NCBI GenBank assembly: GCA_019915015.1
Contig: JAHBBC010000009.1
Location: 1,302,001-1,366,000, forward strand
DNA from: Auriscalpium vulgare
Lineage: Eukaryota; Basidiomycota; Agaricomycetes; Russulales; Auriscalpiaceae
Reading direction: 5' to 3'
DNA: 64,000 bases
Shown: piece by piece, positions 10,588-61,252 of the stretch
Layout: every line of letters begins with the position of its first letter
Numbering within the stretch: position 1 is the stretch's first letter
The notes under the pieces: generated by a model
The model's input: the letters and a program-made list of their open reading frames with translations, nothing else
Databases searched by the model: none
What the model was told of the DNA's origin: nothing
Translations under genes and position numbers: made by a program

Positions 10588-10602
10588 ACCGTCACCGCCG
10601 GC

Positions 10603-15100: not shown

Positions 15101-15283
15101 ATCGTCGATGCTCGCCGCCGCGGCCGCGGTTGGCAATACCTCGTACGTTGGAAGGACTGGGGTGACGAGGATGCCCAATGGCTCCCGTCGCGCGAACTCC
15201 AGGACTGTGCCGCCTTGGACAGGTGGCTCCAGCGCTCCTCTTCAACCCCTGATTCCTCTTCTTCTGAGGGGGGAGGAGTGTAA
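11957..15283 (+). CDS. pol: Ty3/gypsy Pol: reverse transcriptase, RNase H, integrase, chromodomain
   Basis: Convincing homology starts near 12110 (VLRELEARLL); the first 50 or so codons are probably the wrong frame over the protease tail. Reverse transcriptase: the substrate-side motif RWVNDYRALNANT and the catalytic YLDD in ICHVYLDDIIIW. RNase H: the acidic residues are in TTDASDFRTGAVL, the E of VHEKELLAIV and the D of CTDHRTLEYF. Integrase: an HHCC zinc site (HDALGHFGTDKSY ... CAQCQRNK) and a DDE core in VAIDFIGPLP, VSDRDKLFISRFW and HPQTDGASERTNK. The C-terminus is a chromodomain (EEEWEIDEIVDARRRGRGWQ, then YLVRWKDWGDEDAQWLPSRE), which in chromoviruses directs integration to marked chromatin. 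All catalytic motifs are intact. The stop lies at the 3' LTR boundary. Confidence 0.93.
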   Translation: MITSCARAPRKILSTTFSSTTTTTIPPCLPPLRSLSLRPLRLRFSSARATVLRELEARLLSQRASCERLAEHVRPVHVVSAIALRIAALAHAEDLKRLDSAMKEKFVDRFPADIPHIDELPCDVYHRIRLKDANKTIATRSYNCPRKYRDAWRTLLDQHLAAGRIRPSSSAHASPAFIIPKADPTALPRWVNDYRALNANTVPDSHPLPRVDDILADCAKGKIWGKMDMTNAFFQTRVHPDDIHLTAVTTPFGLYEWPVMPMGGRNAPATHQRRMTVALRHLIGKICHVYLDDIIIWSQTVAEHTRNVCAVLQALRDAHLYCSLKKTDLFCESVHFLGHEISVRGIEADPTKVDRITNWPVPRNATEVRAFLGLVRYIASFLPQLAEHTRVLTPLTTLDAQHDWPGWLPCHQAAFDGVKALVLSRECLTTINHQTPGDNRIWVTTDASDFRTGAVLSWGPTWESARPVAFDSMQLKGAQLNYPVHEKELLAIVRALQKWRVDLLGTHFIVCTDHRTLEYFSTQKDLSRRQCRWQEYLAQYDFDIEYVPGPENTVADALSRLPVEPDAGVTSVWAATVCLAREAPSLDVLLSCPVSSSLSRVSLDRQLLDDIRSGYPSDSFCARLLRNLDSTPGAAHRDGLLYLGDRLVIPRVPLLRETFFQLAHDALGHFGTDKSYASLRETYYWPGMRRDLDQGYIATCAQCQRNKSLSTKPAGPLHPLAVPDARGDSVAIDFIGPLPPDEGFNAIVSMTDRSGADVRLVPIKTTMTAEQFAGVFFEHWFCENGLPLEIVSDRDKLFISRFWKALHRLTGVKLKMSSAFHPQTDGASERTNKTVNQCLRFHVDRRQRGWVRALPRVRFAIMNTVNASTGFSPFQLRMGRQPRIIPPLVDAHVRESVRNLGSDAERAATLLELIAADFAKSQDNLTAAKLSQADAANKHRGPERVYTVGDRVLLSTFHRRRDYQAQDPSRVAKFMPRFDGPYTVTRAYPERSSYTLDLPSTSSTFPTFHASLLRPFLPNDPDSAPSCVLQRPGPVVTENGEEEWEIDEIVDARRRGRGWQYLVRWKDWGDEDAQWLPSRELQDCAALDRWLQRSSSTPDSSSSEGGGV
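15266..15278 (+). other. Polypurine tract
   Basis: A GAGGGGGGAGGAG run directly abuts the 3' LTR, the expected place for plus-strand priming. Confidence 0.8.
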
Positions 15284-22073: not shown

Positions 22074-23478
22074 TCACTCTCGCCTCCCGCCCTTTTTCTT
22101 CTCCTTCCGCGCCTTCCTCTTCTCCTCTTTCTCGACCGCCTCGTTCACAGCCAGCAGGTCCTTTATCGACGGGATTGCGGACGACGCGAGCGGTGCCAGG
22201 CGCACCTGCCCTTCTTCATCTTCACCTTCGTCGTCCCGTGTTTTGGGCTCGGCAGAGGGTGCTTTGGTGTCGACTGCGGGCGGCGGTGGCGGTGGTGCTG
22301 CCTCTTCGTCGTTGTCAAACCACCCTCTGCGCTGTGGAGAAGCTGCATGGAGACTCGGAGACCTAGACGGAGACTGCGGGCGCCGCGGCGGGGGAGCATC
22401 GTCGTCGTCGTCTGAGTTCACGACGATGCCTTCGTAGTCGCCCGCGCCCGCGAAAATGTCAAAGTCTTCCTCAGATGTTTCGGGCTCCGGCTCCGGCGTA
22501 GGTGCCCTCCTCGCGGTCGACGGGCCAGCTGTTGCGCTGGCGGAAGAGGGGAGCGGGAGTGGTACCGTAGAAGCGTCTGGAACAGTGTCCACCTTGCGCT
22601 TCTTTTTCTTCCTATCGCCCTCCTCGCCCTCCTTCCTCTTTGCCTTTTTCTTCTTTGAGTCCTGCCCAGTGCCGATTGGTTTGAACCCTATGGGCTTGAA
22701 CTTGTCGGGCGGTGGGGGCTTCTCCGCGGGGGCAGTAGCGTCCGCGTCCGCGTCGCCGGCGCCACGCTTCTCCTTGAGCGCCTTGATGATATCCGCACGG
22801 GAGCGTTTCTTCGACGTGGAGGAGGTGTCAGCTGGATCGGGCGCAGATGCGACCTCGGCAAAGGCCTGCTCGAGGAGCTCGTCGTCTTGCTTGGACGAGA
22901 CGGAGGCGAGGCGCGCGCGGTTCTGCTCGAGGAGGGCAAAATCGAGGCCCTTGACGAGGATGGAGTGCTCCGAGTCGCCGCCCAGGTACTTCCGCTGTTC
23001 TTCGAGCTGTGAAAGTCCGATGTTAGCGAGAATATGGTGGCGTGGCAGCGGGCGACGCACGGCCTGCTTGTCCTCGGCGTCGGCATTCCGACGCTCAAAG
23101 TCCTCCAGCACCGCCTCGACCTGCGCATAGTCGCTCTCCTTGCCCAGCCGGCGCTCCTCGGCGCGGTCGCGGTACGAGTCGTCCTTTTTCTTGACTTTGC
23201 GCGGTTTGAAACTGGGCGCGGCGCTGGCAGCCGCTTTCCTACGAGACGGGTCTGAGAGTCATGATTTTCCGTGTGCACCAAACATATATTGGGAGCGTCG
23301 CGTACGGTTTAGATGGGCCCGCTTTTGTGCTCAAAAAAGAGCCACGGGCGACGGTCGCTGTCGGCGTTCCGCCAGGCCCAGCCGTCTGCAACAACTGTCG
23401 AAAGGAGTCCTGAAATGCGATGTTGAGCACAAGAACAAGATGGACATGCGTAGAAATTTGAAGCCTTACCTGGTCCAT
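22074..23478 (-). CDS. RED/IK-like spliceosomal protein
   Basis: Four exons: 23470-23478, 23306-23409, 23061-23238 and 22074-23006; 407 residues. The first coding exon is only nine nucleotides (MDQ); the join reads MDQDSFRQLLQTAGPGG, typical of fungal homologs. The diagnostic RED N-terminal block is present: DDSYRDRAEERRLG, then LEEQRKYLGGDSEHSILVKG and LDFALLEQNRARL. The rest is charged and low-complexity with Lys-rich nuclear localisation runs (KKKKAKRKE, RKKKKRKV), acidic Ser/Asp patches and a Lys/Arg C-terminus. RED/IK is a component of the activated spliceosome (B complex) and a nuclear protein. Human RED has RE/RD/ER dipeptide repeats, which are not seen here. The gene is divergent from sterol O-acyltransferase. 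Confidence 0.85.
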
Positions 23479-42944: not shown

Positions 42945-44742
42945 ATGGCATTCTTCTGTGACTCTTGTAACACCTCCTTCCCCACCCGATCCTACCTTGC
43001 GAGTCACTACAACCGTGTCCATCGACACCCCAAGCCACCGCATTGTCGATCTAAAATCCGCTATCACCCGGACTTGAACGGTGTGCGACTTGAGCACCGT
43101 CATTCAACTTCCTCTGACTTTCTTCGTTGCAGCCCTCCCATGCGACGAACACGGGAACTTCCTCCCGCCTGGATCCCCGCCGCTCCCGCCCAATGTCGAC
43201 CAGGATTGGGCACCGTTCGAAGATCGCCCGTCTTTTGAGTTTGCTGAGCTCATGTTTGAAAAGTCGCAGTCGTCTCAAGGTGATATTAACCAGCTTCTGA
43301 AAATCTGGGCTGCAAAGGCCATTCTCCATGGACACGATGGCGAGTTCTTCCCCGACAATGATGCTGTCAAGGCCGCAATCGACGAAATAACGGTCGGTGT
43401 CGCATCGTGGCAATCTTTTAGAGTTCGGTACACTGGCCCCACCACTCCTGACTCTCCATCATGGCATCGCGAAGAGTACACTGTTCATACACGAAATATC
43501 CGCGCGGTCCTGCACAACATGGCCGCTAGCCCAGATTTTGACGGCAAATGGGAAACACGTCCATATCAAGAGTTCCGAAACGGCGAACGACGCTTCGCAA
43601 ACCTCATGTCCGGTAATTGGGCATATCGTCAGGCTGTAAGTATCCTCCCGCTGCCCTGGATACTGTCTATTCTGACGTTGTTCCCGCAGAATATCGTGGC
43701 TGAGGACCCCGACACCCATGGTTCAATGCTTGTGCCGGTTATCCTCGGGGCCGACAAAACAACAGTCTCAGTTGCGACGGGCAATACCGAGTTTCACCCG
43801 CTCTATGTCTCAGCCGGCAATGTCACGAACGAGCTACGACGTGCGCATCGCGACGCCGTCCTCCCGGTCGCTTTCTTGGCTATCCCCAAAGGTTTGCGTT
43901 GTTGTCCCTTTTATCCCGCCACCAAACTTATGCGTGCTCTAGCTCCACGAGAAGAAGAGAACACCGCTGAGTTTCGACTCTTCAAGAAGCAAGTCTACCA
44001 TGCGTCCATCGCTCGCATACTTCGCCCAATCGAGCGTTATATGACCAAGCCCGACGTCGTGTACTGCTCTGACCGATACTATCGACACGCAATCTACGAG
44101 ATCGGTCCATTTATCGCCGACTATCCAGAGCAAGTACTACTCGCAGGTATCGTGCAAGACTGGTGCCCTAAGTATGTCAGGGCTCGTTAGTTTTACCTTG
44201 ATATCATCTAACTCTGTTGCTATTAGGTGTCTGGGACATCCAGACGACCTCGATAACATGGGTTCCCTTCGGTTTCGGGAGCAGACCGAGCATCTCAAGG
44301 CGACGTACGATGCCGAGACACTCTGGGATGTCTTCGGCGTGGCTAGCGGTGTCACAGTATGTCTTCGTATCCACGCATTTCTGTCGGCGCCAGCTCATCT
44401 GTGCTCATAGCCATTCACGCACCGGTTTCCTCGTGCCGACATCCACGAGCTTCTCACACCAGATCTCTTACATCAAGTGATCAAAGGAACATTCAAGGAC
44501 CATCTTGTGACGTGGGTGCAAGAGTATGTTGAGCAAAACAACGGCAGGAAGGAGGCTAAGCAGATCATGGATGATATCGACCGCCGGTATGTGCTTCACG
44601 ACGTCTTGGCGCAGCATATTTGATTGACTGACATGATCCGAAAAGCATCGCAGCAGTCCCTGCATTTCCGGGCCTTCGCCGTTTCCCTCAGGGCCGCAAC
44701 TTCAAGCAATGGACAGGAGACGATTCAAAGGCTTTAATGAAG
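42945..44742 (+). CDS. Plavaka-family transposase, exons 1-7 (continues at 59328)
   Basis: Exons: 42945-43080, 43133-43635, 43690-43891, 43943-44171, 44227-44356, 44411-44586 and 44646-44742. The protein starts with a C2H2 zinc finger (CDSCNTSFPTRSYLASHYNR ending VH), then the Plavaka-type block LPCDEHGNFLPPGSPPLPPN. The transposase core shows VILGADKTTVSVATGNTEFH with PLYVSAGNV, and a D/H-rich ADIHELLTPDLLHQVIKGTF, as in KDZ/CACTA-like DDE transposases. Exon 7 ends ...QWTGDDSKALMK at a GTTCGT donor. The next exon is 14.6 kb away because a KDZ transposon occupies the intron. Joined to the exons at 59328-60634 the gene encodes 908 residues, a normal size, without a frame break. Plavaka are DNA transposases widespread in Agaricomycetes. 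Confidence 0.87.
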
Positions 44743-44758
44743 GTTCGTATCAATCACC

Positions 44759-44766
44759 ACAAGCAC
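44759..44766. repeat. Target-site duplication ACAAGCAC (left)
   Basis: The same eight bases lie at 59292-59299, just outside the other end of the KDZ element. Deleting the element and one copy leaves a 52-nt intron (44743-44766 joined to 59300-59327), a typical size here. Eight bp is the duplication length known for the related Zisupton elements. Confidence 0.8.
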
Positions 44767-45876
44767 AGGCGTCCCTGTACCCCGTTTACAAAGGTACATA
44801 CATGTATGTACCCGCCTGTTTACAAAGGTACCCACCTAGAAAAGTGCTCTTTATTAATAGGGACCTGTATACGAAAGTGGTTGGAATGAATGGGGGAGAA
44901 TGTAGGGTCCCCCTAGGGCTCCCCTAGGGTGCTCTAGCGGTGCTAGCAGCGGGTTTGTAGGGGGTACTTTGTAAAGAGCACCTCTTTATAAAGAGCACCT
45001 GCCGAAACACAAACGATTCCCCAGGTCCAAATAAATCTGGATAAATCTGTAAAATGCGCAAAATATTCGTAGCCTGCTCTGATTGTACAATTTTCGGGTT
45101 CCCAGCAGGGGGTACTTTGTAAAGAGCACCTCTTTATAAAGAGCACCTGCCGAAACACAAACGATTCCCCAGGTCCAAATAAATCTGGATAAATCTGTAA
45201 AATGCGCAAAATATTCGTAGCCTGCTCTGATTGTACAATTTTCGGGTTCCCAGCAGGGGGTACTTTGTAAAGAGCACCTCTTTATAAAGAGCACCTGCTG
45301 AAACACAAACGATTCCCCAGGTCCAAATAATTCTGGATAAATCTGTAAAATGCGCAGAATATTCGTAGCCTGCTCTGATTGTACAATTTTCGGGTTCCCA
45401 GCAGGGGGTACTTTGTAAAGAGCACCTCTTTATAAAGAGCACCTGCCGAAACACAAACGATTCCCCAGGTCCAAATAATTCTGGATAAATCTGTAAAATG
45501 CGCAGAATATTCGTAGCCTGCTCTGATTGTACAATTTTCGGGTTCCCAGCAGGGGGTACTTTGTAAAGAGCACCTCTTTATAAAGAGCACCTGCCGAAAC
45601 ACAAACGATTCCCCAGGTCCAAATAATTCTGGATAAATCTGTAAAATGCGCAGAATATTCGTAGCCTGCTCTGATTGTACAATTTTCGGGTTCCCAGCAG
45701 GGGGTACTTTGTAAAGAGCACCTCTTTATAAAGAGCACCTGCCGAAACACAAACGATTCCCCAGGTCCAAATAATTCTGGATAAATCTGTAAAATGCGCA
45801 GAATATTCGTAGCCTGCTCTGATTGTACAATTTTAAGGTTCCCAGCAGGGGGTACTTTATGAAGAGCACCTGTTAT
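44767..45876 (+). repeat. Left terminal inverted repeat of the KDZ element
   Basis: Reverse-complement match to about 58334-59291. It comprises an outer AT-rich segment with two TTTACAAAGGTAC copies, a GC-rich palindromic stretch (CCCCCTAGGGCTCCCCTAGG), six 148-bp units, and an inner degenerate copy ending near GTACTTTATGAAGAGCACCTG. Confidence 0.88.
44960..45847 (+). repeat. Six tandem 148-bp units (left array)
   Basis: Units start with GGGGGTACTTTGTAAAGAGC at 44960, 45108, 45256, 45404, 45552 and 45700. Outer units read AAATAAATCTGG, inner ones AAATAATTCTGG, so variants are ordered along the array. Each unit contains a direct repeat of TAAAGAGCACCT. The long open frames across it are artefacts: the unit length is not a multiple of three. 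Confidence 0.95.
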
Positions 45877-46146
45877 GTTATGCTGTTGGTGGGTGGGAAC
45901 AAATCAGATGAAATCTTACAAATAGTCAGAATATTCATATCTCTTGATGATTCTTCATTTCCAGGTAGGGGCTACTTTATAATGTGGACCTGCTATACAA
46001 TATTTGTTGCCAGGCATTCAGATCGTACATGCCTCCATCATTTTCCCAGCTATAGATGACATAGCAGAGGGTACTTCATAATGTGCTCCTACTATATCTT
46101 TGTATATTTCTTCTACTCACTGCCCATTGGATCATTATGTATTATC
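45877..46146. other. Subterminal AT-rich region with decayed repeat units
   Basis: Short echoes of the array motif (GGGGCTACTTTATAATGTGG, AGAGGGTACTTCATAATGTG) suggest eroded older units between the repeat and the transposase 3' end. Confidence 0.5.
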
Positions 46147-49100
46147 TCATTCTACATCTATTTCAATAGGTGTAGATAACACAACTAGAGGTCTACCATC
46201 CTCCTGACGTGTCTGTAGGAATGTTTCAGCAGCCTTTCGAACAATAGCCCAGGAGGCTGAAAATTGCACTGAAAAGTCAGAAAACATGACAGCCTGTTTA
46301 CCTGCATATCCAACCAGCCCCTCCTGTAGCTCACGAGACACATCAGGCCTTTGACCAGATTCGCCGCGAGAGGTCCACAGGTCCGACTTCCACATGCATG
46401 TTGCCACAACACGACGCATTTCCTCATAAAGAAGAAGTACCTCCTCAACCCAACGCTTCGATCTGGCACGCGCCTTGAACCACTCGATCTTCAAATCTGC
46501 GAGAATATCAGCCTATCAAGTTGTATGATACACCAGGCTGTGAACTTACCATCACCGATCTCCATCTCCCCGTTCTCGCCCTCCCCATATGAGTACCAAA
46601 CCCACGGCACAGTATGACTGCTTTCTCCGCTAGCCGCACCTCCCGGGTGGCGGCCACGAACGTACTCACGGAGCCGTTGCTCATCAGCGTGGTCAATCGC
46701 ATGGATCATTCGTTCCCCCAGCCCAACCAGGTGCTCATCCTTGAGCTCCTGGAATCGACGCTGCCAGTCCCCATCTCCCGAGAGCCCTTGATACGCCGCG
46801 CGGTGCTTTCGATAAGCTTCTGCCGCGCGTTTCACGGAGTCCTCGATACGAGCCTGCATGTCCCGCGCACGAGTGTTTGGCCGTTGACCGCGAACGTTCT
46901 TGATTTTCCATGTGTTGACATACGTGCGGAAGCGGAGCTGGTGGCGGACATCCTCAAGGGCGTCGCACATGCCAGCATATCGAAGCTTTGACTCCGTAGA
47001 GACGATCGTCGGGCTGCAAAGCTCGTCACGCTGTGCTGCTGTGAAGTCGGAGGGAAGGTACAATTTGATGCGCTCGGGCTGCTCGCTGGAAAGGCTAGAT
47101 GCAGACTCAGCTGCATCGATTTGCGGCGTGACAAATGGCATGTGTAGTTCTTGATCCAAACGAAAGCGGCGAATTTGCCGTAAGATAGCTGTTCTCGCGT
47201 CCAGTAGTAGCGTCGCTTGGTTCGCCGTGGTATCGCTCTGACGGTCAAGCCGTAGCTTCAGCCTGCAAGAGAATGTTGAGCGCAAGGTGGGGGAAACGCG
47301 TCAGGGTAGCTTACTGTGCGGCTTCAATACGCAGACCCTGCAATAAGAAGGTGCCCACGGCGGGCTCTGAAGTCGTGTTGCTGTCCAAACGAACCGCCGC
47401 ATGTTCGTCCCGCGAGAGTTCCAATCGGACATCGTCCACTGTGAGGTCTAAAGGCTTGTCAGTGGATTGGATGCCAGCGCATCAGCTATGTGCACGCACC
47501 TGACGTTGGCTTTCGATAAGGGTTGCTCTTGCCGCTGGGATCTGCCTCCCAGGACTCGATGGTACCTTGCCATTCACCCAGGACGTCCGGGTGCTGAGCT
47601 TGCAGACTGTCCGTGAATTCCGCATATATATCGCCATGCTCCTCCGAGCGTTGGATTGCCACCTGTAACTGTCGTCGTAGGAGCTGTACTGTAGGTCCAT
47701 GAGCGCGAAACAGACAATGTGAGCGGTGATAAAAACGTACGAAGCCCGGTAAAGCGACGCCAGTTTGACTGGCCGCACTGGTCGTCGAGTGTGTCGTGCC
47801 GTCCGCCGGGGCCCATTTCCTTCGTGCTCGGGGCAGCCCCGTTGACAACCGACCAGCCGCGCTCGACACTCTCTCCATCGGTTTGACCGGCGCCCTGTTC
47901 CTTGTGTGACGAAAAGTCGTCTTGACATTCCTCCTTGTGGGCAAATATGTGGAACTTCGGCACCATGAAGTGGATGAATTCGGGGAGGGTGAACCTAGTA
48001 TCGGCGACGCGCGTCCTCAGGTTCTTCGACCATTGGCACGCGATGTCGTAGGAAACGAGGAGTGCGCGGTTCGCGGCGCTCGAAATGCTGCTGAGAAATA
48101 CAAAGTCCATGTTGCAATACCTACAACCAGGAAGTTGGGTCAGCAAGCATGATCAACGCCGAGTCAACGTAGCACGCACCGTTCTCCTTTCTGCAAGTCT
48201 GCGAGCCCCAAAGGCCGCCAGAATCCGTGCCTCGCGCAGCACACCCCTCCAACGCCCGTCGCCCTCAACCCCTTGCTACTCTTGAGGTTTGCGGCCGCTA
48301 CCGCCGAGAATCGCGAGCACCCCGACATCTGTCATGGTACAAATAATCAGCGTATGTACAGGTCCCGGCAGCAGACCCTGCTCACCACATCTTGGTCCCG
48401 AAATTTCGCCAGGTGGGTCTCATATTCTTCATCCGAAACGAAATATGCCTTGCCTGTTCCCAGGCCGGGGTCTCTGGTGCTGGATGATCGCAGTCGATTC
48501 TTGAGCCGGAAATTTGCATCGACTGCGACCATGAGCCTGTAAAGCCAGCTATTGGAAACATCAGCTAGCGTCGGGCGGGATGCTGCTGCTACGCACCTTC
48601 GATTTGGCGGTGCGGCCTCCCATCCTTCTGGTAGGTTGACGTCCGGCATGGGGCATGCAGGACACGTCACTGCCAATTCACCAGGGCCTGTCCCCACAAC
48701 GCCCGCTGGATCGTGACCCCTTCCCGCCCGTTTCATCATTTTGATATGCCGCCACTCACGCGCCATCGTCATGAAAGCCGTCAAACGGTCCTGGGCGCGT
48801 CGTGAGCATACTGAGAGGCAAGCTAACCAAGCAGAGCTCACCGGTGGCACGCTCAAACCAGACCCGTCCGTCAGAATCTCCAGCGACTTGTAGAAGTCGT
48901 AGCCGGACAGTTTGCCCTGCAGTGACAGCTGCTGAAAGGTGTCCAGGCACGCAAAGGTCGCGGCCGTCTGGGGATCCACGACGGTGGCAGGCCAGAGCCC
49001 GGAGCGCATGAACTGTTGCCTTCGCTCGAGGCCGGTGGACAAGCCGCATCCGCAGTAATCGACTTTGACTTTATGTACACCGTTCGTATGCAGGACAACA

Positions 49101-49859
49101 AAGTCGTCGCGGGCGGGGCTGAGGCTGCCGCATTTCATACCGGGGGTGTGGCACAGTTGCAGGCGCAGGCCGAGGGAGGAGAGTGGCGACCGTTCGAAGA
49201 ATGTACCGTTCCATCTCTGCCAGTGGCTGTGAGTCGTGTGCTGTAAGAAACAAAGTGCCGTGACGCACCTCCGTCCAATGAAAAGGGCAGCGCACATGGA
49301 ACGCGACCGTGCACTCAGCGCAGAATAACTCGAATCCCGCACAATCTCGACAGCGGATGGTGGCAGGCCTCTCCCTGCATGATCGGCATGTCGAGTCTTG
49401 CGCATATTGCCCGCGACCCTCCAACAACAGCAGGCCGTCCAGATATTCGTCGCGGTGCATTATCCAGGAGAGAAGGGGCAGATCCTAGAACGTGCCGTGT
49501 AAGTAGCAAAAGAGAACAGGATGGTATGAACTCACCGAAGACAGCCATCGGCGAGTGCGTCCCAAGGCTACGTCAACCGGCGTAATGGGAATGACCTCGC
49601 CATCTTCATCCAACGCCAGAAGCCCGTCTGGTTCGACTGTCAAATCGGTGCGCCCGTTGCCATCCCAGAGGTCGTTGCGCGGCGGGGATGGGGCTGGAGT
49701 GACGGGTTGCAGAAGTGGGCGAGTCGGTGCAACCGGCGTCCGCCTCTCGACAAGTCGCCGTCCGTCTTCAGATGCAGTGAGAACAAGAGAGCGATTGACA
49801 GCAGTAGGGGTTTTCTCGAAGAAGGTGGATTGCCGTGGGTTGGCCTTGGGGCGTGTCAT
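46147..49859 (-). CDS. KDZ transposase with CxC2-type cysteine cluster
   Basis: Eleven exons: 49536-49859, 49269-49484, 48842-49216, 48597-48790, 48386-48548, 48180-48328, 47741-48120, 47500-47688, 47315-47447, 46550-47262 and 46147-46496; 1,061 residues. Near the N-terminus lies the cysteine cluster CRSCRERPATIRCRDC ... FCAECTVAFHVRCPFHW, followed by RWNGTFFERSPLSSLGLRLQ, typical of CxC2 domains fused to KDZ. The DDE-type core: D380 in VAVDANFRLKNR, D499 in LVSYDIACQWSKN, and E557/E560 in GQTDGESVERGW, plus CARHGFWRPLG and ADLQKGERYCNMDFVFLS. The C-terminus is helical and charged (KIEWFKARARSKRWVEEVLL). It is expected to bind the terminal repeats and cut and paste the element. Phases agree at every join; the extreme C-terminus could have another intron. 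Confidence 0.9.
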
Positions 49860-49967
49860 GGATGCGCACCGTGCAGCCCTGGTGCAGCCACAGCCGCGTT
49901 GTTGACAAGTCAGAGGCGGTCACGTGAGCGCATGCGCTTTGTTCAACATGTGTTGTATTGTACTATA

Positions 49968-51747
49968 CTAGCCTATCTGCTGATGCCCGCCCTTCTCTGC
50001 GTCTGACGGCCCTAGCCCAAAGACCTCCCGCACATCGGCCTCGAGCGCCGAAAGATGGGAGAAGAGGCCCATGGCATCCGTCGCGCGCTGAGACCTCTGG
50101 GAGTACACCTCTGCGAAACCCTTGGCGTCCTCCTTCTCGAAGGCCTTCTGGCTGCGAAAACCATACTCAACGTAACGAAACAGCGCGCCGGATGTGTACT
50201 GTGTGATGCACGCCCTAGTCTCGCCGTCCTGGATATCGGTATTGCCGTGCGGTACGCTGCCCGAGGGGATCGCGGCTGTGGATCCTGAGGGGAATTCAAT
50301 GATGACACCCATCTGCCAGAGAACAAGGTGGCCGCCCCGCTTGTGGTCGAATTCCCCCAGGGGGGTGATCGTGCACCAGCCGTGGGCAAGATTGGCACTA
50401 TCGACGTGGGCCTTCGTAGTCGCGTGGGGTCCGAAGTTGAACGTTGTGGTGGCGAAGATGCTGTTATCGTGAGGGAGGGATAGGCCTTCATGGTGCTCCA
50501 GAAGGCGGTCGACCATGTGTTCGTATTTGCGATATAGTTTTGGGGAATTCAATGCGACGACGCCTACAAAGCCTGTCAGAAAATATCTTGGTTCCACAAG
50601 GGGCCACGCACTGCTTCCGAATCCTATGATGCGGCGGACATGGCAGTTCCTCTTCAAGCAATACACGACCTCCTTGTTTTTGCCCAAATTGAGCTCCTTG
50701 GGCTCCTGCGCATCGTGTCAGAAAGGCGGTGGGGCGTAAGGCTGATGCTACGCACGGTGTGGCCGCGACCGTATGAGATGCCCGTATGAATGGATGGGAA
50801 TTTCCCTCGACGGCGGTCCTTGCCATCCCCCTGGAATTCCAGTTGGCCGCGTGCAGCGTCGAGTGCGGCGTACGCGCCTCGTCTCGTTTTGTCCCAGCCA
50901 TCGTCATCGCCGTGGGGATGACCAGCGAGAACGGCGAGGATGCGGCCTTCGGAATCCACGAACGCAATGTGCCTCCTGCATACCCAGGTCAGAGCTCCCC
51001 ACATGCGAGGAAGTCCGATGCTCACCTTCCATCCCATTTGATCAAGCGCATCCCGCGCTTTTGCAGCTCTTCCGATGTTTGCATGCCCTGCGAGAGTCCG
51101 TGCGAGGCCCCCGGTAGGCCAACCCACGCCCCTTGAGCATACTTGAGTGCGTCCGCGGCCATGGCGACGTATTCGGGGGCAGGGTGCGTGTGCTTCTTCG
51201 CGACGCCTCCGCGGACTTTGTACCTGGGCATGCGCCCCTCCTGCAACACCTTTTCACGCTTGCGCGACCTACGCAGCTTGTTGTGGAGGCGAGTGATCTC
51301 CTTGTGCCCCAGGGCCATTGGTTCGTGTTGCTCCGACGCGTGCACCTGAGGAGGTGGCGCGCTGTCCGGCGCGGAGTCTGCCATGCTTGGCCCCAGGACA
51401 ATGACTTCCTCGACCCATGAAGGAAGAAGAGAGGCGAGGTGCTCGGGGTATGGATCATGCGCGGGCGCGTCGAGGCCTTCCTCCGCGAGATCTGCGTGCT
51501 CCAAGGCAGCCTGCACAAGCCGTGGCATCTCGCAGTCTGCGGCAATGGGAACGGCCTCGGACACGCCATCCAAGTGCCATCGGGTGAGCTCGGAGGGGCT
51601 GTAAAAGGGGTTGTAAACACGTTTGGAACGCGTCTGCAAAAACCGCGTCAGCGTCTGTTCCCGTGGAGACGTGTCAACTGGCTCACCGTTTTCATCGCCG
51701 TGCAGTGAGTTGACGCGACCTGTCGACGCGGCCTGAAGCCAAGGCAT
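49968..51747 (-). CDS. TET/JBP-family 2-oxoglutarate/Fe(II) dioxygenase (5-methylcytosine oxidase-like)
   Basis: Exons 51026-51747, 50756-50972 and 49968-50705; 558 residues. The C-terminal TET/JBP domain shows the iron-binding HxD (H413, D415 in KAHVDSANLAHGW), the TITPLGEFDHKRGGHLVLW block, a distal His466 (IPSGSVPHGNTD) and the 2-oxoglutarate-binding Arg477 (DGETRACITQY), so the catalytic set is complete. The N-terminal part is basic and helical (KEITRLHNKLRRSRKREKVL) and may bind DNA. Family members oxidise 5-methylcytosine or thymine in DNA; the substrate here is inferred. The gene lies 108 bp upstream of the transposase on the same strand. Intron 1 uses an unusual GGAG acceptor, and the start at 51747 is provisional because an upstream exon is possible. 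Confidence 0.87.
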
Positions 51748-53221
51748 GCATAAGCAAGGGGTGGTTCTGACAGAAAGAGAATGGAGGGCGTGTTATTCGC
51801 CCCAGCACTTGGGTGGTGCCGTGTCCGGCTCGCTGCACCAAGTGCTGAGGCGTGCAAGCACCTCCAGGCGCGTACTTTTGGGTCCGTAGAGGGCGCGCGG
51901 GGTGAAGGGAATCCAGATATAACAAAGGAATGATGGGATTGAATATCGCAGGTACAAAAGATGGTGACAAAAGAGGGTGGGTGTGGCCGTGTGGTTGTGG
52001 GCGCGATGGCTCGGAGATGCGGCGAATTGAACTCGTTGAGCGCTCAAGCTCGGAGCCGCTGGTCTCGATCTTGCCAAATATCCTCTGGCAATCCTCTGAT
52101 TGGGATGGATGCACATCGTCTTCTGGGTCACTGCGGCGTGTCTCTGTCCTTGCATGCTTTACTCAGTCATCTGGCAGGATTTCTGCGCAAAGCTCAATCA
52201 AATGTCAAAGGTGCACCGTTGTTGAGATGCCGAGAACTTTCGACTTGGTTTTGCATGTAAGTACAAGTTTTACGCACTCGGTCAAATTCCAAAAACAAAA
52301 CAGAGCAACTGATCATCGCAAATGCGATGATGCACGCAGGTGGTCGTGAATTCATGGGATGTATGTATACAGCGCAGGTGTGCCCCATCCTCAGAGTCCT
52401 CTACTCCAACGATCAGGCTGACTCGGATGCTCGAATACTGCTTCCTCCGCTGCCCCCGCTTACACATCCCCATTTTACTCCTTCGACTTTCGAGACGGAC
52501 TTCATCCTATCCTTGAGCTTGGGGTCATGATGCCCGGGGACATCATCCAACGTGTAGATCTGGTACCGCGTGCTCTGGACTCTGGAGTCAGCAAGCAGAT
52601 TGAATGAATGAAACGGTGAGCGCGCAATGTGCGCATCTTCTCCGCAGCTTCCTTGGGGTCGATCTGCTTCACCTCATGCCGCGGGCTGCTAGGCGGCGGA
52701 GTTGGCGGCCGTGGCTCGCTCAGCCTCGAGGGTTGCTCGAGGGGAAGGTGTGTGTATGTTATCGCCGCACTTTGTCGCAAGGCCTCCCTTCTCCTGCCGT
52801 ATACTTATGTCCACGCCCCATACAGGACGAAGTGGGGGCTTGCTAGCGCATGGGAGATGCTACGTTGGGCCATGAAGAGCAAGAACGGCCTGTTCGAAGA
52901 CCGGGAGCTATAGCACGAGGTGGGCAGATGCCCACCGGGACAGAGCCCAGGCGTGGCCTCCTCACACTTCTTATGATCAGATCGATGAGCAGGGTCATGG
53001 GGAACCCTCGAGTTGTTCCATATCCCGCAGGCATCGCACCAACGGTGCTCGCTGCACCGGATAGAAATTAATCACGTGCAGGTGTGCTCCCCTAAGTCAC
53101 ACGCTTGGACGCCCAAGGCCGACACACAACGCTGTGATTCTGCATCCTCGACACGTCCTGTTACGCCGCCAACACAACGCTGATTCTTATAAGACTGGCC
53201 CTCTAGGTAGGCATCCGCACC
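51748..53221. promoter_or_regulatory. Central divergent promoter region of the KDZ element
   Basis: About 1.5 kb between the leftward pair (TET/JBP, transposase) and the rightward pair of genes. Several open frames overlap on both strands, but none has convincing splicing or start context. An upstream exon of the dioxygenase could hide here. Confidence 0.4.
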
Positions 53222-54485
53222 ATGGCTCCCTTCGACTTTGTCAATCAACTCATCCAGCCAGCCGTTGGTAGCTTGCCCATCAAAGTCCGCGTCAAGTGCC
53301 AACCTGCTTTCTTCGATATCTGGGTGCCGCCCGACGCAGATATGACGACAACTCACCGGTATACCCAGTATGCCGTACGCCAGTGGGTGGCCACAACTCT
53401 GGGCCTCCCCCAGATGCCGGAAGTCAAAGCCAGTGCCATGACTATCCTAGACAAAGACCGTTCGTACATAGTGCATATAATTGCTCATCCATCTAATCCT
53501 ATCGCGTCTCAGATAACATCAAAGGCAATGCTCCGCCTGGCCGCAAAATGGTCCGCAACGTGGTTCCGAAGGACGGTGCGCTGTGGGCGGCTATGGATGC
53601 GCAGTTCGCACTTAGCGAACTAGCTTGGCCCAATGGTCCACCTGACGCCCAGGGTGGCGATGAGGATGAGGTACAGAGCAGCGATGGCGAGGAGGAGGAA
53701 GACGAGGAGGACGAAGGGATGGATCACTGTGAGTCCGCTTCGCCCTGCGATATTGGATCGATAGCTTACCCTACCCTTCACTCAGTGACAATCGTAGGAA
53801 CTGTCGCATCCTTCCAGCAACAGTATGTGGAAACCAACAACGCCCGGGTCGACCGGCTGGAAGAGACTGTCGTCTCCAGGATGGACCGGCTGGAAAAGGC
53901 CGTTGTCGCTCTCCAAGAGCTTAACGCCGGTCTAGAAGGGCGTAACATCGAACAGAGGGACACAGTGAGCGCCCTTCCCACTCAACCCGATCGGCGTCTG
54001 ACCGTACAAAATAGTACCAAGCAATCAATGCCGACCTAGGATCGCATGCCTCCGCGCTGACCGACACAGTCCAGCGCAAAGACCTTCGCATTGAGAGCCT
54101 TGAGGCCGACATCGGCGCCCTTCAGCGGGCAATTGACTTTCTCTCCATTCGTCACCTCGTAAACATCAGCGAGGACGCCTACTGGAAGTTTCGTGGGCTG
54201 ACCAAGCCAGAGAAGAGGACGCCCGTCCCCACCCTCGTCTCCGACGTGGAGACCATTACCCGGAGCGACCCATTCACCTCTTTCAATGCAAAGGAGCTCG
54301 CCGGGGCCCTTCGTCTTGCCGTCGAACCAAGCCTGTCCCGGAAAGGCGGCAATACCGCCGCCCATAGCGCCTCTCTGGGTGACATCCAGAAGGCGCTCGA
54401 GCGGAACAACTTCGATGTCGAGAACCGTGACCATTATCTGTTGCTTCTTCGATTCGTTCAGCGCGCGTATCCTAAGAAAGTTTAG
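53222..54485 (+). CDS. Coiled-coil cargo protein of the KDZ element, unknown function
   Basis: Exons 53222-53459, 53513-54013 and 54070-54485 (384 residues). A further in-frame 57-nt intron (53729-53785) with a GTGAGT donor is likely and would shorten the protein to about 365. The N-terminus is compact (MAPFDFVNQLIQPAVGSLPI). An acidic run (DGEEEEDEEDEG) follows, then two short heptad-like repeats (VDRLEETVVSRMDRLEKAVV) predicting a coiled coil. The C-terminal third is a folded-looking helical domain with WKFRGLTKPEKR, DPFTSFNAKELAGALR and NRDHYLLLLRFVQRAYPKK, which resembles nothing I can name with confidence. It may act as a DNA-binding or oligomerising partner of the transposition machinery; this is a guess from context. 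Confidence 0.65.
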
Positions 54486-54917
54486 TGATACCCGGCATCG
54501 TCCAACACAGATCGTTCGCATCCTCATCCTCATCGCATCGTCTCCTCATATGATATCCCCTTTGTACGATACGTCGGTGGCGCGCTCGCATATATACACG
54601 TACAGTTCTATCGGTAACGGATTCCCGGCTATATATTCCATGCTGAATGACTCGCGTGAGAACGAGTTGAGTATGGCCGATCATTTCGGCTGCTATGGAT
54701 TGACACGGGAGGAAGTATCTCGAGTGGCAAGAATGAACCCCATATCATAATTGGGAAGTCGAGTATGCACAACTGTAAATAGATGGTTGGCCCTCGAGAC
54801 AGCCGGCGGTCGGGGCCCAACCAAGCGCCTTGACCGCGGACAAACCCTCTACCAGAGCCAGCGAAAAAGAAATACGCTGCCTCTCCCCACCACTTTCACA
54901 ACCCTATCGACCCCGCC
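54486..54917. other. Intergenic between the two rightward KDZ cargo genes
   Basis: Contains a TATATATACACG-like stretch at about 54590-54602 that could be promoter sequence for the next gene. No gene seen. Confidence 0.35.
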
Positions 54918-57900
54918 ATGCCCCGAGCGAGCACAGGAAAACCGCGCGGTCGTACGTCCTGGGCGCAGGGAACAAAACTCGCCTTCCTCGTTCGCCACAT
55001 GGACGGCTATAGGAAGGTTGAAGGCGATAAGCTGAAGGTCGCAAAATTTTATAATTCGCTCACCAGGCTGTGGATCCTGAGGTATAAGTATGAAAAGGCC
55101 ATCGACGGCGACCTCGAGGAAGACAGCCCTGACCCCGACATCTCCCTCCTCGACGAGATCTCCGACCACGAAGGCGAGACGGAGGAGGAGTCTCAGCAGC
55201 GCCTGTCTGTGCGCAAGGTAGTTCATAAGGTGTGTGGGACTTCACCACAAGCGTAACACGGCGTTGACCATTTCACAGCGCATCTCGGGATGGTATCAGT
55301 ATAACTCGAAGAAATTAGGAAACCTACCGGCGCCGTCGGTCGCGTCGCACGAGGAAACGTTCCTTGAGCTCGTGCAGGGCGTTATCAAGCAGCCGCGCCA
55401 TGAGAACATCCTGCATGTCTTCGCAGAAATGTATGCGGAGTTGATCGAGCCCGAGTACGCAAAGGAGTGGGCGACGGCTGTCGCCTTGGCCGGGCAGGGC
55501 GCTAAGGGGCTTCCCAAGGCGGTTGAAGTCCGAAATCGACTGGTGAAGCGCATCTTCGACCGGCAGAATGAGACTGTGCAGGCGACCGTCAAGCAAGTCG
55601 TCGACACCCGCTACGAGAAGGCGATGGCCGACTACCAGAGGGCTTACATTGACGCGCCGAGGACCCGCGAGCAGAAAGAATGGTAAGCTATAGCACACCC
55701 GTACAGCGCAATCAACACTCACCTCGCTGCAGGGCCCTCAATTCTGCGTTTTCCATCCTGCAGCCAATGGTCGATATGGTTTCGTCCCGGTTCGGTGTCG
55801 CTGCGACATTGATGATGGCCGGCCCTATGCCATCGAAGGGCGGCGAAGTCGACGTGTTGAGGTGAGAGGCTGTGTACGCACCTTAACCGTGACTGCGACA
55901 TTGAAATTTGACTGTCTTGCAGCGTTCACTCGGGGGAGTTGCGTGGCCTGGTCAACATGATCTGGCCGGAATACGACCGCGCTGGGTACGATACAGCAGC
56001 CAACTCGCTGATAGGATTTGCGCAGGCCGTGTTTCGTAAGTTTGAAGCCTTCATGCGCTCGTTGGTCGTGTGCTGACGAATCTGGACCAAGGCGATCTCC
56101 CGGACCGGCCCGCAGGTGCCAGCACAGCAGCAACTGGCAAACGCGCCTCTGAGTCTGACAGCGCCTCCAACAGCAGCAACGAAGAGTCAGACCACCCCCT
56201 CGAGGACGACTTTGGCGCCCATCCCTCTGCTGCCCTCTCCATTGCAACTTCCTCCACTGCACCATCCTCCGCTGCGCCCTCATGCACCGCACCCGACTCC
56301 AGCACGCAAGCGTCCAACACGCCTGGGGCAGGTGCGCTCGCCTCCAGCGCGCCCGACTCCAGCGCGCCCGCATCCAACACGCCTGCGGCAGGTGCACTCG
56401 CCTCCACCGCGCCCGACTCCACCGCGCCCGCATCCAACACGCCTGCGGCAGGTGCGCTCGCCTCCAGCGCACCCGACTCCAGCGCGCGCGTGTCCAACAC
56501 GCCTGTGGGAGGTGCGCTCGCCTCCACCGCGCCCGACTCGAGCGCGCCCGACTCCACCGCGGCCGCATCCAACACGCCTGGGGCAGGTGCGCTCGCCTCC
56601 AGCGCACCCGACTCCAGCGCGCGCGCATCCAACACGCCTGTGGCCGGTGCTCGCGCCTCCACCGCGCCCGGTTCCACCGCGCCTGCGTCCAGCACACCTG
56701 CGGCAGATGCGCTCGCCTCCAGCGCACCCAACTCCAGCACGCCTGCGGCTGGCGCCTGCACCGCGCCCGACTCCACCGCGCCTGCGTCCGGCACGCCTGC
56801 GGCAGAAGCGCTCGCCTCCAGCGCACTTGACTCCAGCGCACTTGACTCCAGCGTGCCCGACTCCAACACACCTGTGGCCGGCGCGCGCGCCTCCACCGCG
56901 CCTGACTCCATCACGCATGTTTCCTCCACGCTGAACTCTAGCAGGCCTGCGTCCACCACCCTCTCCTCTACCGCACCCGCGTCCTCCGCTCCTGTGCCAT
57001 CGTCCACTGCACCGTCAACTACGGCCGCCGCGTCCGCTGCGGTCACACCGTCGTCCGCACCAGCAGCCGGCTCCAGCACGGCGGCGGCCGTATCTACCAC
57101 TGCGCTGGCCCAGGGCCCTCCCTCGGCGTTTTCGGTCTTCACCGCCGTGCTCGCCGACGTGGAGAAGGCAGCCAGCACTGCGAGCGGGAACAGTGTATTG
57201 ACCAAAACCATCACGGCGACAGCTGAAACCCCCACGGCCGCAGCTAACCCCGCCACAACGCTCGCCTCGACGCCGAAGTCGACTGGAGCGTTTGACACGT
57301 CTTCGTGGCCGAAAACCTTTCGCGAGGCGTACCAGAGTATGGCATCACATAACTTTGGGGAGGAGTGGCATACGCTGGTAGGCACTTACTTCTCGTTTGA
57401 GATCTCTCGTCGCTTCGAAGTGAGTGGTCGCACTTTGTCATTTTGTAATGATGTCTCATCTCTCTGATTTCAGGGAAGGCGTTTGGGGGGAACTGATCGC
57501 CCAGATGCAGTGGGGAATTGGATCAGGGACGCGCGGAAGTGGCACAGGGCGTCCGTTGACCCGACGGAGGTTTCGTCCTTCGAAACCTCGTGGTGGCGGT
57601 GGTGGGTTTCCTTGCAACCTGCGGAGCGTGTCATCGACGCCGAAGCATTCGTCCTGGATGTACCAAAGGACGACATGTCCTGGGAGCAGGTCAACATCGC
57701 CGGCGTCAATGGACTTCTTAGCGTCGTCGCGGCGCTGACATGGTGGGGCGTTGCTGTGCATCAAGTTCAGGATGGTATACCCCGCTGGATGGATGCCGTT
57801 GTTGATGTCACACACGCCCTCCTTGCCATGCCTACCCCTCTCTTACAGGCCTTGATGACTGCCTCGTCATCAGGTACCTCTGTGCCATCGTCGAAGACGG

Positions 57901-57962
57901 CACGTCGTCAGCGATCAGACACGACGGGCACCAAGGGGCGGCCTGGCAAGCGTCGCAAGTAA
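54918..57962 (+). CDS. Large low-complexity cargo protein of the KDZ element, unknown function
   Basis: Exons 54918-55229, 55279-55682, 55733-55861, 55923-56035, 56092-57419 and 57474-57962; 924 residues, phases consistent. Residues about 1-320 are helical and charged (RTSWAQGTKLAFLVRHMDGY; RHENILHVFAEMYAELIEPE; NETVQATVKQVVDTRYEKAM). Exon 5 then encodes about 250 residues of Ala/Ser/Pro/Thr repeats. The C-terminus has a Trp-rich domain (FGEEWHTLVGTYFSFEISRR, DAVGNWIRDARKWHRASVDP, TSWWRWWVSLQP) and ends in a basic tail (KGRPGKRRK) that could be a nuclear signal. The family is not recognised. The bipartite structure with a repeat linker suggests a scaffold or DNA-associated protein; no enzymatic motif is visible. 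Confidence 0.72.
56280..56930 (+). repeat. Coding minisatellite, about 60-bp period
   Basis: About eleven imperfect units encode variations of ASNTPAAGALASSAPDSSAP. The period is a multiple of three, so length changes keep the frame. Because of the biased composition, other frames on both strands are also open, but these are shadows. Confidence 0.85.
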
Positions 57963-58333
57963 TTGTAGGCTGTATGTTTCATATCAATCATATGTCCCAT
58001 CTTGATATTGCCTTCCTCTACCTTGTTTGGCTACACTTTGGCATCTACTCCTTAGTTACTATGTTGTAGCTAGTCTCACTGGAGTATTGTGTGCTGGCCA
58101 TTTGCTACTGCAGTGACTTAAGAGCTCAAAAGTGAGGTAAATCCAGGAATAAATATTACTTGTCATGAGTTTGTTAGGACTTGCTGGCTGGGAGCAGTCA
58201 CTGTATGGCAGGTACCAATCAGAGATTAGAATAATACATACCCAGAAATACAGAATTGGCAGGGGGTATAAATATTCTGACCATTTTTGAGATTTTTCCC
58301 AATTTATTCCGACCTGAGAACAATGTGATGTAG
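57963..58333. other. Subterminal AT-rich region, right side of KDZ element
   Basis: 3' flank of the last cargo gene, with decayed repeat fragments (GGCAGGGGGTATAAATATTC) next to the right inverted repeat. No gene seen. Confidence 0.5.
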
Positions 58334-59291
58334 CAGGTGCTCTTCATAAAGTACCCCCTGCTGGGAACCGAAAATTGTACAATCAGAGCAGGCTACGAAT
58401 ATTCTGCGCATTTTACAGATTTATCCAGAATTATTTGGACCTGGGGAATCGTTTGTGTTTCAGCAGGTGCTCTTTATAAAGAGGTGCTCTTTACAAAGTA
58501 CCCCCTGCTGGGAACCCGAAAATTGTACAATCAGAGCAGGCTACGAATATTCTGCGCATTTTACAGATTTATCCAGAATTATTTGGACCTGGGGAATCGT
58601 TTTTGTTTCAGCAGGTGCTCTTTATAAAGAGGTGCTCTTTACAAAGTACCCCCTGCTGGGAACCCGAAAATTGTACAATCAGAGCAGGCTACGAATATTC
58701 TGCGCATTTTACAGATTTATCCAGAATTATTTGGACCTGGGGAATCGTTTGTGTTTCGGCAGGTGCTCTTTATAAAGAGGTGCTCTTTACAAAGTACCCC
58801 CTGCTGGGAACCCGAAAATTGTACAATCAGAGCAGGCTACGAATATTCTGCGCATTTTACAGATTTATCCAGAATTATTTGGACCTGGGGAATCGTTTGT
58901 GTTTCGGCAGGTGCTCTTTATAAAGAGGTGCTCTTTACAAAGTACCCCCTGCTGGGAACCCGAAAATTGTACAATCAGAGCAGGCTACGAATATTCTGCG
59001 CATTTTACAGATTTATCCAGATTTATTTGGACCTGGGGAATCGTTTGTGTTTCGGCAGGTGCTCTTTATAAAGAGGTGCTCTTTACAAAGTACCCCCTAC
59101 AAACCCGCTGCTAGCACCGCTAGAGCACCCTAGGGGAGCCCTAGGGGGACCCTACATTCTCCCCCATTCATTCCAACCACTTTCGTATACAGGTCCCTAT
59201 TAATAAAGAGCACTTTTCTAGGTGGGTACCTTTGTAAACAGGCGGGTACATACATGTGTGTACCTTTGTAAATATACTACAGGGACTGGTG
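58334..59291 (-). repeat. Right terminal inverted repeat of the KDZ element
   Basis: Mirror of 44767-45876, about 150 bp shorter because it carries five instead of six 148-bp units (about 58347-59096). Its outer part is nearly identical to the left one, with small differences such as TACATGTGTGTAC against TACATGTATGTAC. Confidence 0.88.
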
Positions 59292-59299
59292 ACAAGCAC
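59292..59299. repeat. Target-site duplication ACAAGCAC (right)
   Basis: Matches 44759-44766; see the left copy. Confidence 0.8.
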
Positions 59300-59327
59300 G
59301 CACATTAAACTCACGCTAGAGGTACAG

Positions 59328-60634
59328 GTGTTTGTTCCCGCGATAGTGGGTCATGTCCCGGATCGCATGGTTCAGGCAATGGTCGCATTCCTCGACTTCT
59401 GTTACTTGGCACGGCGATCATCTCATATGCCATCGTCACTCGCATCTATGGACAGCGCCTTGGCGCGGTTTCATGCTCATCGCGAGGTATTTTGGGAGGA
59501 AGGCATCCGTCCGGACGGGTTTTCCCTACCACGTCAGCACGCGCTTACCCACTACATCCGCGCAATCAAGTTATTCGGCTCTCCATATGGCCTGTGCTCT
59601 TCCATCACCGAGTCAAAACACATCCACGCTGTCAAGAAGCCCTGGCGCCGCTCCAGCAAGCATCGCCCGCTCGCCCAAATACTTCTTACCAACGAGCGCA
59701 TGGACAAGCTGGCCGCAGCGCGTGTTGAATTTGGAGCGCGCGGCATGATCAAGGGCGATGTTCTTACCGCAGCATACCGTGCAATTGGTGTTGACCTCAA
59801 TGGAATCTTCGAGGACGACGATGACGATCCTGAGCCAGATGAAGCGGCAGGTATGGATGGCGGCGGCGAGGGTGACATAGGGGATGTCGACGACGAAGCC
59901 GAGCCGCTCATTGTAAAAATGGGGAAATGTGCAGGTACGTCAACTCGTGCTTGACATGAGAGGCATGCTCTGATGTGTTCCTGCCAGCTGAGACGTGCTC
60001 CGTTCCCGCCATGGCTGCAATAGTTGGACAACCCGCCCTCCTCTCCATAATCCGGCGCTTTCTGTATAGTCAGATGTACCCCGACAACGATCTTCCCCCC
60101 GACGCTGTTCCAATCGACGAATGTCCTCCATTTCACGGCAATCTCTCGGTCTTCTACAATGCGCGAGCAACATATTATGCGCCCAGCGAGCTCGCGGGTC
60201 CTGGAGGGATGCATAGCGAGGTCATACGGAGTAATCCGCGTTGGTATCAGCAGTACGAACGCCGTGATACTGTCCTGGTACAGCACGGCAGCGACCACGA
60301 TCTCATGGGAGGTCTCCTGGTGGCCCGAGTGATCCGATTCGTGACACTCGTGCATCGCGATACAGACTTCCCGTGCGCCCTCGTTGAGTGGTTCCTGCCT
60401 GTCGGCGGCATGCCCGATCCTGTCACAGGGATGTGGATAGTCCGGCCGGAACGCGGTCGTCCTGTTGACCTCATTCATCTCGACACCGTCGTTCGGTCAT
60501 GTCATTTGATTGGTGTCTACGGAAATGCGCCCATCCCTCGTAACCTGCAGTTTTCTCAGTCACATACGGCCTTTAAGGCCTTCTACCTTAATAGCTACGC
60601 AGATTATCATATGCACGAGCTTCTGTTATCCTAG
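59328..60634 (+). CDS. Plavaka-family transposase, exons 8-9 (continued from 44742)
   Basis: Exons 59328-59934 and 59988-60634. Exon 8 starts in phase 0 at VFVPAIVGHVPDRMVQAMVA with FLDFCYLARR, which continues DDSKALMK from exon 7, as in other Plavaka proteins. Further family blocks: LPRQHALTHYIRAIKLFGSP, YGLCSSITESKHIHAVKKPW, and a C-terminal part with VPIDECPPFHGNLSVFYNAR and CALVEWFLPVGGMPDPVTG. An acidic linker (FEDDDDDPEPDEAAG) precedes the last intron. No stop or frameshift is seen, so the split gene would still code for an intact protein if the 14.6-kb intron were spliced or the KDZ element excised. Confidence 0.87.
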
Positions 60635-61252
60635 CTACTACTACAGTATGTACAATATGTCGTCTCTGAGTGAGTAAGGTTCTGGATTCTTCTGACTGCC
60701 TCTGACGTCGCGATGTCAGAGCTGTCAGGGATGTCAGCGCGTGTCAGAGCAGGTCAGAGAAATCGGGAAGTACTGATGGGGCATGGTGGTCCGAGCAGTA
60801 CCCGGTATACCCTTTCGCATCAAACTTCTGCGACGCCCTGCACCCGTGGATGTGGCACGTAGGCGGCGGTGGCTGTTTGCTAGATTTGGAGGCGGCTGGT
60901 CGCTGTCAGCCAGTCCGGTGTGGGACTCCGAGGGGGAAGCGTCTGCACATACCTTGGGGTTGTCCGCCTGCCCCACCATGCCCGCCTGCGCGTGGTGCAC
61001 GATAGTTAGGGACTGGATAGAGGTCAGGTGCGGATTGGACTGCGGTTGGTCGCTGTCAGCGTGTGCGGTGTGGGCCTCCTCGGAGATGGGAGCGGCGCGT
61101 CTGAACATACCTTGGCGACTTCAGCAAAAGTGACGAAATATTATGGTGTTTATATTGAGTTATACTGATATTGCCATGCAGATAAGGCAAGATAAGATAT
61201 TCGGGCGCGGCCATTACTGCTGTCTGAGCAGGGTATATGCACCCGATCTCTT
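60635..61252. repeat. Plavaka right flank with TCAGAG-rich repeats and Cys/His block
   Basis: Short TGTCAGAG-type repeats (60700-60765) followed by CAGTACTTCCC on the complementary strand mirror a similar run at 40345-40440, so the two runs are inverted with respect to each other and could be subterminal parts of the Plavaka element. The block at 60785-60865 is related to the 247-bp units at 39700-40290. Element ends were not found. Confidence 0.45.

Follow-up and report, generated by a model that had tools for sequence, protein, structure and literature searches.

A recently mobile KDZ-group transposon of Auriscalpium vulgare with a TET/JBP-fold dioxygenase gene and a companion gene that recurs beside KDZ transposases

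Introduction

Fungal genes for TET/JBP dioxygenases were reportedly described in company with KDZ transposons by Iyer et al. in 2014. Here, we analyze such an association in Auriscalpium vulgare, in a stretch of 64,000 nucleotides of contig JAHBBC010000009.1 (assembly GCA_019915015.1), hereafter the window. Positions 44766..59291 of the window are occupied by a 14,526-bp transposon (no strand assigned) with four predicted genes, which encode a KDZ transposase, a TET/JBP-fold dioxygenase (hereafter TET) and two further proteins, termed C and D.

The closest described systems are the TET-bearing (TET+) Kyakuja elements. Complete elements of this type have been published from Agaricomycetes, including Russulales, and the idea that TET helps them escape silencing is already in print, as stated in the parts of the paper covered here (Kojima, 2025, PMC12730594); thus, the core of the window element is known. 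In the same parts, the Kyakuja signature is given as a 7-bp target-site duplication (TSD) with 5'-CA..TG-3' ends. The window element shares both, together with the KDZ transposase and a TET/JBP gene inside the element, but its enzyme carries Asn and Cys where AG-type enzymes are described with Gly/Ser and Asp. KDZ1-KDZ3 of Cryptococcus also belong to the KDZ elements and are mobile; they measure about 9-11 kb and have terminal inverted repeats (TIRs) and a cysteine-cluster domain (PMC12810828). In the passages covered, however, that domain is CxC1, in contrast to CxC2 in the window element, the TIRs measure 139-241 bp, the TSDs are 8 bp (KDZ1) or 4-8 bp (KDZ2, KDZ3) long, and no TET is named. 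CcTet of Coprinopsis cinerea (PMC11040006; PDB 8jkk, 7w5p, 7vpn) aligns at 15% identity over 240 residues and differs from the window enzyme at CcTet positions 331 and 337, according to the sections consulted. Plavaka transposons, for which TET+ families have also been published, have TET relatives nearby in the A. vulgare genome as well; their transposase is unrelated, and here they are the insertion target.

Against this background, the points that are apparently new are the recurrence of D beside KDZ, a gene C for which the searches made gave one relative outside its family, the inverted arrays of 148-bp units at the ends and an Asn-type TET active site. No description of genes C and D was found in the literature searched (Iyer 2014 and the supplements of Kojima (2025) being outside its scope), and the main text of the latter, as far as covered here, does not mention them. 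The reading we favor, with a probability of roughly 0.7, is that of an autonomous cut-and-paste KDZ-group transposon with Kyakuja termini, in which D belongs to the machinery, TET oxidizes 5-methylcytosine (5mC) and C is a lineage-specific addition.

A Complete and Recently Mobile Element

An earlier sequence-only reading had proposed a bounded element with inverted ends starting at 44767. Comparison of copies, together with an empty site, confirms the element and places its first base at 44766, with ends CAGGCGTCCCTG...CAGGGACTGGTG. The heptamer ACAAGCA stands on either side (44759..44765 and 59292..59298, both on the plus strand). On contig C23, a paralogous sequence (L035) crosses the insertion point without the element and holds a single ACAAGCA, versus two in the window. 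The interrupted gene carries a Plavaka transposase domain (43078..44518, plus strand; open reading frame (ORF) 43078-44187 against PF18759, E 7e-75), with profile positions 1-243 and 240-325 both to the left of the insertion (C9:1345348-1346518). Its sequence resumes at 59299..60700 (plus strand); in C23, this part follows directly on the counterpart of the left flank, at 88-89% identity. Taken by itself, the right-flank ORF 59238-59951 matches nothing in Pfam.

In the genome searched (51.6 Mb, 96 contigs), three intact copies lie at different sites: the window element, C19 (14.4 kb) and C2a (14.1 kb). In a core of 12,201 bases, 3 substitutions separate C19 from the window element and 10 separate C2a from it, and in both copies all four genes are open and GT-AG borders are kept in 22 of 22 introns. 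Because of the empty-site paralog and these two further intact copies, the element is real beyond chance. C2b retains both ends but carries two inserts, one inside D and one separating the right array from the right tip; its KDZ gene has a stop and its C gene a frame break. In C39, which begins at element base 8230, C and D are the sole genes left, and D has a frame break. The result that the earlier reading had named as refuting it, other copies mostly lacking the cargo genes, was sought and not seen: all four genes are present in four of the five large copies (window included), with KDZ, C and D broken in one of the four, and C plus D in the fifth. Copies differ in length by whole 148-bp units. 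A short end piece on C18 is about 80% alike and therefore comes from a related family, and on C24 (L034:1346-1461) a lone left end of 116 bp is 99% identical, the rest of the element being absent within the 3 kb examined.

Target duplications are exact at 7 bp in all four two-ended copies (ACAAGCA, CGCCTTT, GAATCTG and GTTTTGG), all of which have CA..TG termini (CAGGCG...CTGGTG). In all four, a C precedes position 44767 or its equivalent, and the eighth right-flank base is C, C, T and A; since the constant left C belongs to the element and the eighth right base varies, the duplication measures 7 bp and the termini read CA..TG. An 8-bp TSD, with a Zisupton/Dileera-like element, was ruled out on the same grounds, as the eighth base fails in two of the four copies. 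The element is structurally complete and has been mobile recently; the earlier suggestion of a complete, possibly mobile KDZ unit is supported.

The tips outside the arrays are short and match imperfectly (CAGGCGTCCCTGTA / CACCAGTCCCTGTA); more than 0.9 kb of inverted arrays follows. The left subterminal array (44959..45871, plus strand) comprises 6.2 units of 148 bp, with gaps of 147-148 bp between copies, and the right one (58335..59098, minus strand) comprises 5.2 units, inverted with respect to the left; the units of both arrays are 98% matches. The inverted arms at 44771-45694 and 58363-59286 (924 nt, 98% complementary) consist largely of these tandem units.

Introns in the gene models were assigned manually on the DNA sequence alone. 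The four predicted genes contain 22 GT-AG introns of 48-61 nt and no internal stop, which, with the open frames of C19 and C2a, agrees with the spliced, intact genes first proposed. The KDZ transposase gene (46147..49859, minus strand; 11 exons, 1061 amino acids) encodes complete CxC2 (PF18803, 132 bits) and KDZ (PF18758, 220 bits, profile 1-217 of 217) domains. The TET/JBP-fold dioxygenase gene lies at 49968..51695 (minus strand; 5 exons, 508 amino acids). Both enzymes had been named in the earlier reading, and Pfam domains for the former and a fold search for the latter uphold this. Gene C (53222..54485, plus strand; 4 exons, 367 amino acids) has an N-terminal region, an acidic stretch, a probable coiled coil and a C-terminal region; its second intron (57 nt) keeps the frame even when unspliced. 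Gene D (54918..57962, plus strand; 6 exons, 924 amino acids) has an N-terminal domain, an Ala/Ser/Pro/Thr-rich repeat region and a Trp-rich C-terminal domain. The "two divergent pairs" read earlier are in fact two tandem pairs, one of KDZ and TET (minus strand) and one of C and D (plus strand), with transcription of the two pairs leading apart.

Gene D Accompanies KDZ Transposases

Relatives of D are numerous within the same genome. The matches kept, all lower bounds, numbered 55 for the D C-terminal part, 16 for the D N-terminal part, 108 for KDZ, 77 for Plavaka and 73 for TET. A listed KDZ match lies within 10 kb of 27 of the 55 D C-terminal matches and within 15 kb of 36, compared with 0 and 6 of 55, respectively, for Plavaka; when positions were drawn at random, the mean was 5.2 and the maximum 12 of 55. 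Relative to the nearest KDZ, 31 of the 36 D matches within 15 kb are divergent, at 6.8-14.4 kb, and among the N-terminal matches 10 of 16 have a KDZ match within 15 kb, every one of them divergent (10/10). This distance and strand arrangement is consistent across families of low similarity. A listed TET stands within 6 kb of KDZ in 9 of the 31 divergent KDZ-D pairs and in none of the other 22; for KDZ matches as a whole, the figure is 15/108. Because D lies near KDZ, in no case within 10 kb of a listed Plavaka match and mostly without a listed TET nearby, it appears to track the transposase and not demethylation, and the sequence data are best explained if it takes part in KDZ transposition. 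The suggestion that both additional genes are partners in demethylation consequently finds no support in the case of D.

In the protein database, D residues 1-330 have one match, from A. vulgare (70% over 258 residues); the search requires shared 5-residue words and similar protein length, so few matches do not show rarity. A 15-nt-based coding repeat at window positions 56237-57100, with super-units of 60, 75 and 135 nt, gives D a long Ala/Ser/Pro/Thr-rich linker.

A TET-Type Fold With an Apparently Conventional Asn Position

A protein database search with TET yielded 149 relatives, of which the best 120 were listed; among these, the relatives with organism names come, as far as these were recognized, from mushroom-forming fungi, and the closest are two A. 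vulgare proteins, 98% (308 residues) and 77% (287 residues) identical. Two alignments were built, A1 with 36 sequences and A2 with 77 of the 120 listed. The structure predicted from A2 for the 98% relative is a confident one, with a pLDDT (predicted local distance difference test) of 93.8. With this model, Foldseek placed CcTet, NgTET1, CMD1 and TET2 at the top, and VIA-align CcTet, NgTET1 and TET2; by these predictions, the dioxygenase has a TET-type fold.

The HxD...H metal triad and the Arg that binds 2-oxoglutarate (2OG) are present as H363, D365, H416 and R427. Throughout A2, the second His is invariant and the other three are conserved at 90% or more. In CcTet, the corresponding metal/2OG residues are His326, Asp328, His376 and Arg385, and Gly331 aligns with Asn1387 of hTet2, the side chain of which clashes with N6-methyladenine (6mA), according to the sections consulted (PMC11040006). 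Counted without gaps from the first His, Asn368 of the window enzyme stands at the place of Gly331 and Cys374 at that of CcTet Asp337; both positions are invariant in A2, and in A1 the Cys is invariant and the Asn is conserved at 90% or more. AG-type TETs are described with Gly/Ser at CcTet position 331 and Asp at 337, and PE-type TETs with an HxE motif, in the portions covered (Kojima, 2025, PMC12730594). The window enzyme has neither signature, with Asn368 and Cys374 at the former positions and HxD in the motif. Having Asn368 in place of the Gly/Ser plus Asp combination, its active site appears to resemble those of conventional TETs at this position, a comparison drawn from ungapped offsets and not from residue-level superposition.

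Among TET matches in the genome, 20 of 73 lie within 10 kb of KDZ and 27 of 73 within 10 kb of Plavaka, 17 of these 27 in tandem. Examples of the latter are found at C8:134-137 kb, C22:734-745 kb and C25:583-586 kb. TET+ Plavaka elements are reported only from Agaricales in the parts covered (Kojima, 2025, PMC12730594). By the longest contig given for them, the A. vulgare database proteins P0001-P0004 fall into two pairs, a TET relative of 98% with a C relative of 81% (8293), and a TET relative of 77% with a D relative of 70% (11941). If equal lengths mean that each pair shares a contig, the uneven divergence could stem from TET having been exchanged among elements.

Gene C and the Third Gene of Sister Elements

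The same word- and length-based database search found one relative of C, from A. vulgare (81% over 217 residues), and in its own genome C occurs only in the five copies of the window element family. Its coiled coil was read from the sequence, with only weak matches below the cut-off. Against solved structures, C gave five matches (E 0.29-0.84), which were taken as chance, and a search of the C region against a phage collection found nothing. Fast evolution of C, suspected from per-copy counts, is not supported by the distinct sites, which comprise 9 nonsynonymous and 5 synonymous changes for a neutral expectation of 0.74 nonsynonymous.

Between TET and D, sister elements on C9, C10 and C25 carry a small gene other than C that is read from the same strand (L058:1870-2470, L060:2283-2873 and L059:2890-3500), with a motif like WxGxAWVVxKGxxPGVY. 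By this motif, judged by eye, the third gene resembles the RNase H1 N-terminal domain; none of three versions from the genome (one partial) reaches Pfam at E 0.1. The A. vulgare gene model P0002, which carries PF01693 elsewhere, has a related stretch ahead of D (E 4e-7 to 1e-3). A remnant of the third gene in the window element was dismissed (best E 0.025, antisense within the D coding region), as was C in the three sister gaps (best E 0.78). From the gene order, C occupies the place that the third gene has in sister elements, and no homology between the two was found. Separately, PF01693 (RNase H1 N-terminal) has 29 matches in the genome at E 0.1 or better, several of which adjoin KDZ by eye, including sites at C22:284-286 kb, C47:80-81 kb, C44:34 and 50 kb and C2:2528 kb, among others.

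CpG Pattern

In the older comparisons, CpG transitions make up 6 of 10, 32 of 53 and 14 of 22 differences from the window element; the core holds 1,030 CpG in about 11.9 kb, CpG bases being roughly a sixth. Changes run in both directions, with the CpG on the side of the window 21 (C2b) and 11 (C39) times and on that of the copy 11 and 3 times, respectively. Such a share of CpG transitions is as expected from deamination of 5mC, and the pattern is compatible with an element subject to CpG methylation. CpG observed/expected is 0.59 and 0.55 in the terminal arrays versus 1.02 in the core, and the terminal regions 44767-46000 and 58201-59291 are AT-rich (GC 0.43) and CpG-poor in comparison with the gene core.

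Interpretation

In the favored reading, the KDZ transposase would recognize the inverted 148-bp terminal arrays via its zinc clusters and insert the element with 7-bp staggered ends, with protein D, and perhaps also C, assisting as an accessory factor. TET would oxidize 5mC at CpG sites within the element and elsewhere in the DNA of the cell, and methylation-based silencing would thereby be eased; we infer, as plausible, that the enzyme relieves or resets silencing. D would then be part of the transposition machinery and not of a demethylation system, and C would be a lineage-specific addition in place of the other small gene of related elements.

Several observations weigh against this account or limit it. 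Among the 36 D matches near KDZ, 4 are convergent and 1 is tandem; 19 of the 55 have no listed KDZ within 15 kb, and only 41 of the 108 KDZ matches have a D match within that distance. Recent duplicates inflate the D-KDZ counts and make them non-independent, and the match lists are lower bounds. A structural model covering part of D (P0002 with the D exons of the window) reached a pLDDT of 35.4 and is useless. For the TET protein of the window, Pfam yields nothing up to E 1, PF12851 included, and when solved structures were searched by sequence, whether with TET, its alignment or three relatives, no TET entry came up. PF12851 is matched by 10 of the 36 A1 members at E 0.01 or better; its failure with the window protein is a miss of the profile, and a match is not a defining property of TET/JBP. 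CpG transitions account for 0 of 3 differences in the youngest comparison (C19), and the CpG comparison covers transposon copies alone. Two L. bicolor Kyakuja families lack TIRs, unlike the window element with its inverted arrays; in the passages covered, absence of TIRs is not stated as defining for Kyakuja (PMC12730594). The element is known here from DNA sequence and structure prediction alone, and the DNA-binding roles given to D, C and the arrays are guesses.

TET, C and D might instead form one anti-silencing module, in which D acts as an adaptor and brings TET to the DNA of the element. The gene order and strands of KDZ, TET and D are the same at C9:883-893, C22:184-193, C48:46-57, C10:1005-1017 and C25:164-174 kb, as such a module would have it, but the many divergent KDZ-D pairs without a listed TET within 6 kb of the KDZ (22/31) and the 27 of 73 TET matches within 10 kb of Plavaka, where no D match lies (0/55), make it very improbable. 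The position of TET beside two unrelated transposon groups would suit an enzyme that acts mainly in trans, either as a general 5mC oxidase of many transposons or in the service of the host, with the element carrying it passively. Oxidized methylcytosine is cited also at retrotransposons, and untargeted oxidation is suggested, in the portions of the source covered (Kojima, 2025, PMC12730594). However, TET is free of internal stops in all four copies that hold it, and one of three distinct substitutions alters the protein (too few for a test); on balance, we regard passive carriage as unlikely.

The product of the enzyme could also be a hypermodified or stable oxidized base, or its substrate 6mA, with no role in demethylation. 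CcTet acts on both 5mC and 6mA and CMD1 makes another base, in the accounts covered, and the fold is common to both. Yet Asn368 stands at the place of hTet2 Asn1387, where the side chain clashes with 6mA in the sections consulted (PMC11040006), and a glycosyltransferase domain was not seen in the Pfam search of the four proteins; we consider such an activity highly doubtful.

Beyond the single element, we tentatively suggest, at slightly less than even odds, that KDZ transposons of this genome are multi-component systems: a transposase and a divergent D, with or without TET, plus an exchangeable third gene. TET of the conventional 5mC type would have been added and exchanged with Plavaka, and D would be a core protein for which no description was found in the literature searched. 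Cargo would thus be separable from machinery, and D, which follows KDZ through the genome, would be a component missing from the published descriptions covered. As there are three near-identical intact copies with mapped sites and an empty site, escape from silencing through TET can be tested on a defined unit.

Other Features of the Window

Scans of the window for tRNA genes and Rfam families found none. Positions 10561-15280 encode aspartic protease, reverse transcriptase, RNase H, integrase zinc and chromodomain regions, which we take, from these domains, to be a retrotransposon of the Ty3/gypsy type. A probable host gene with a RED-like protein N-terminal domain lies at 22077-23258 on the minus strand.
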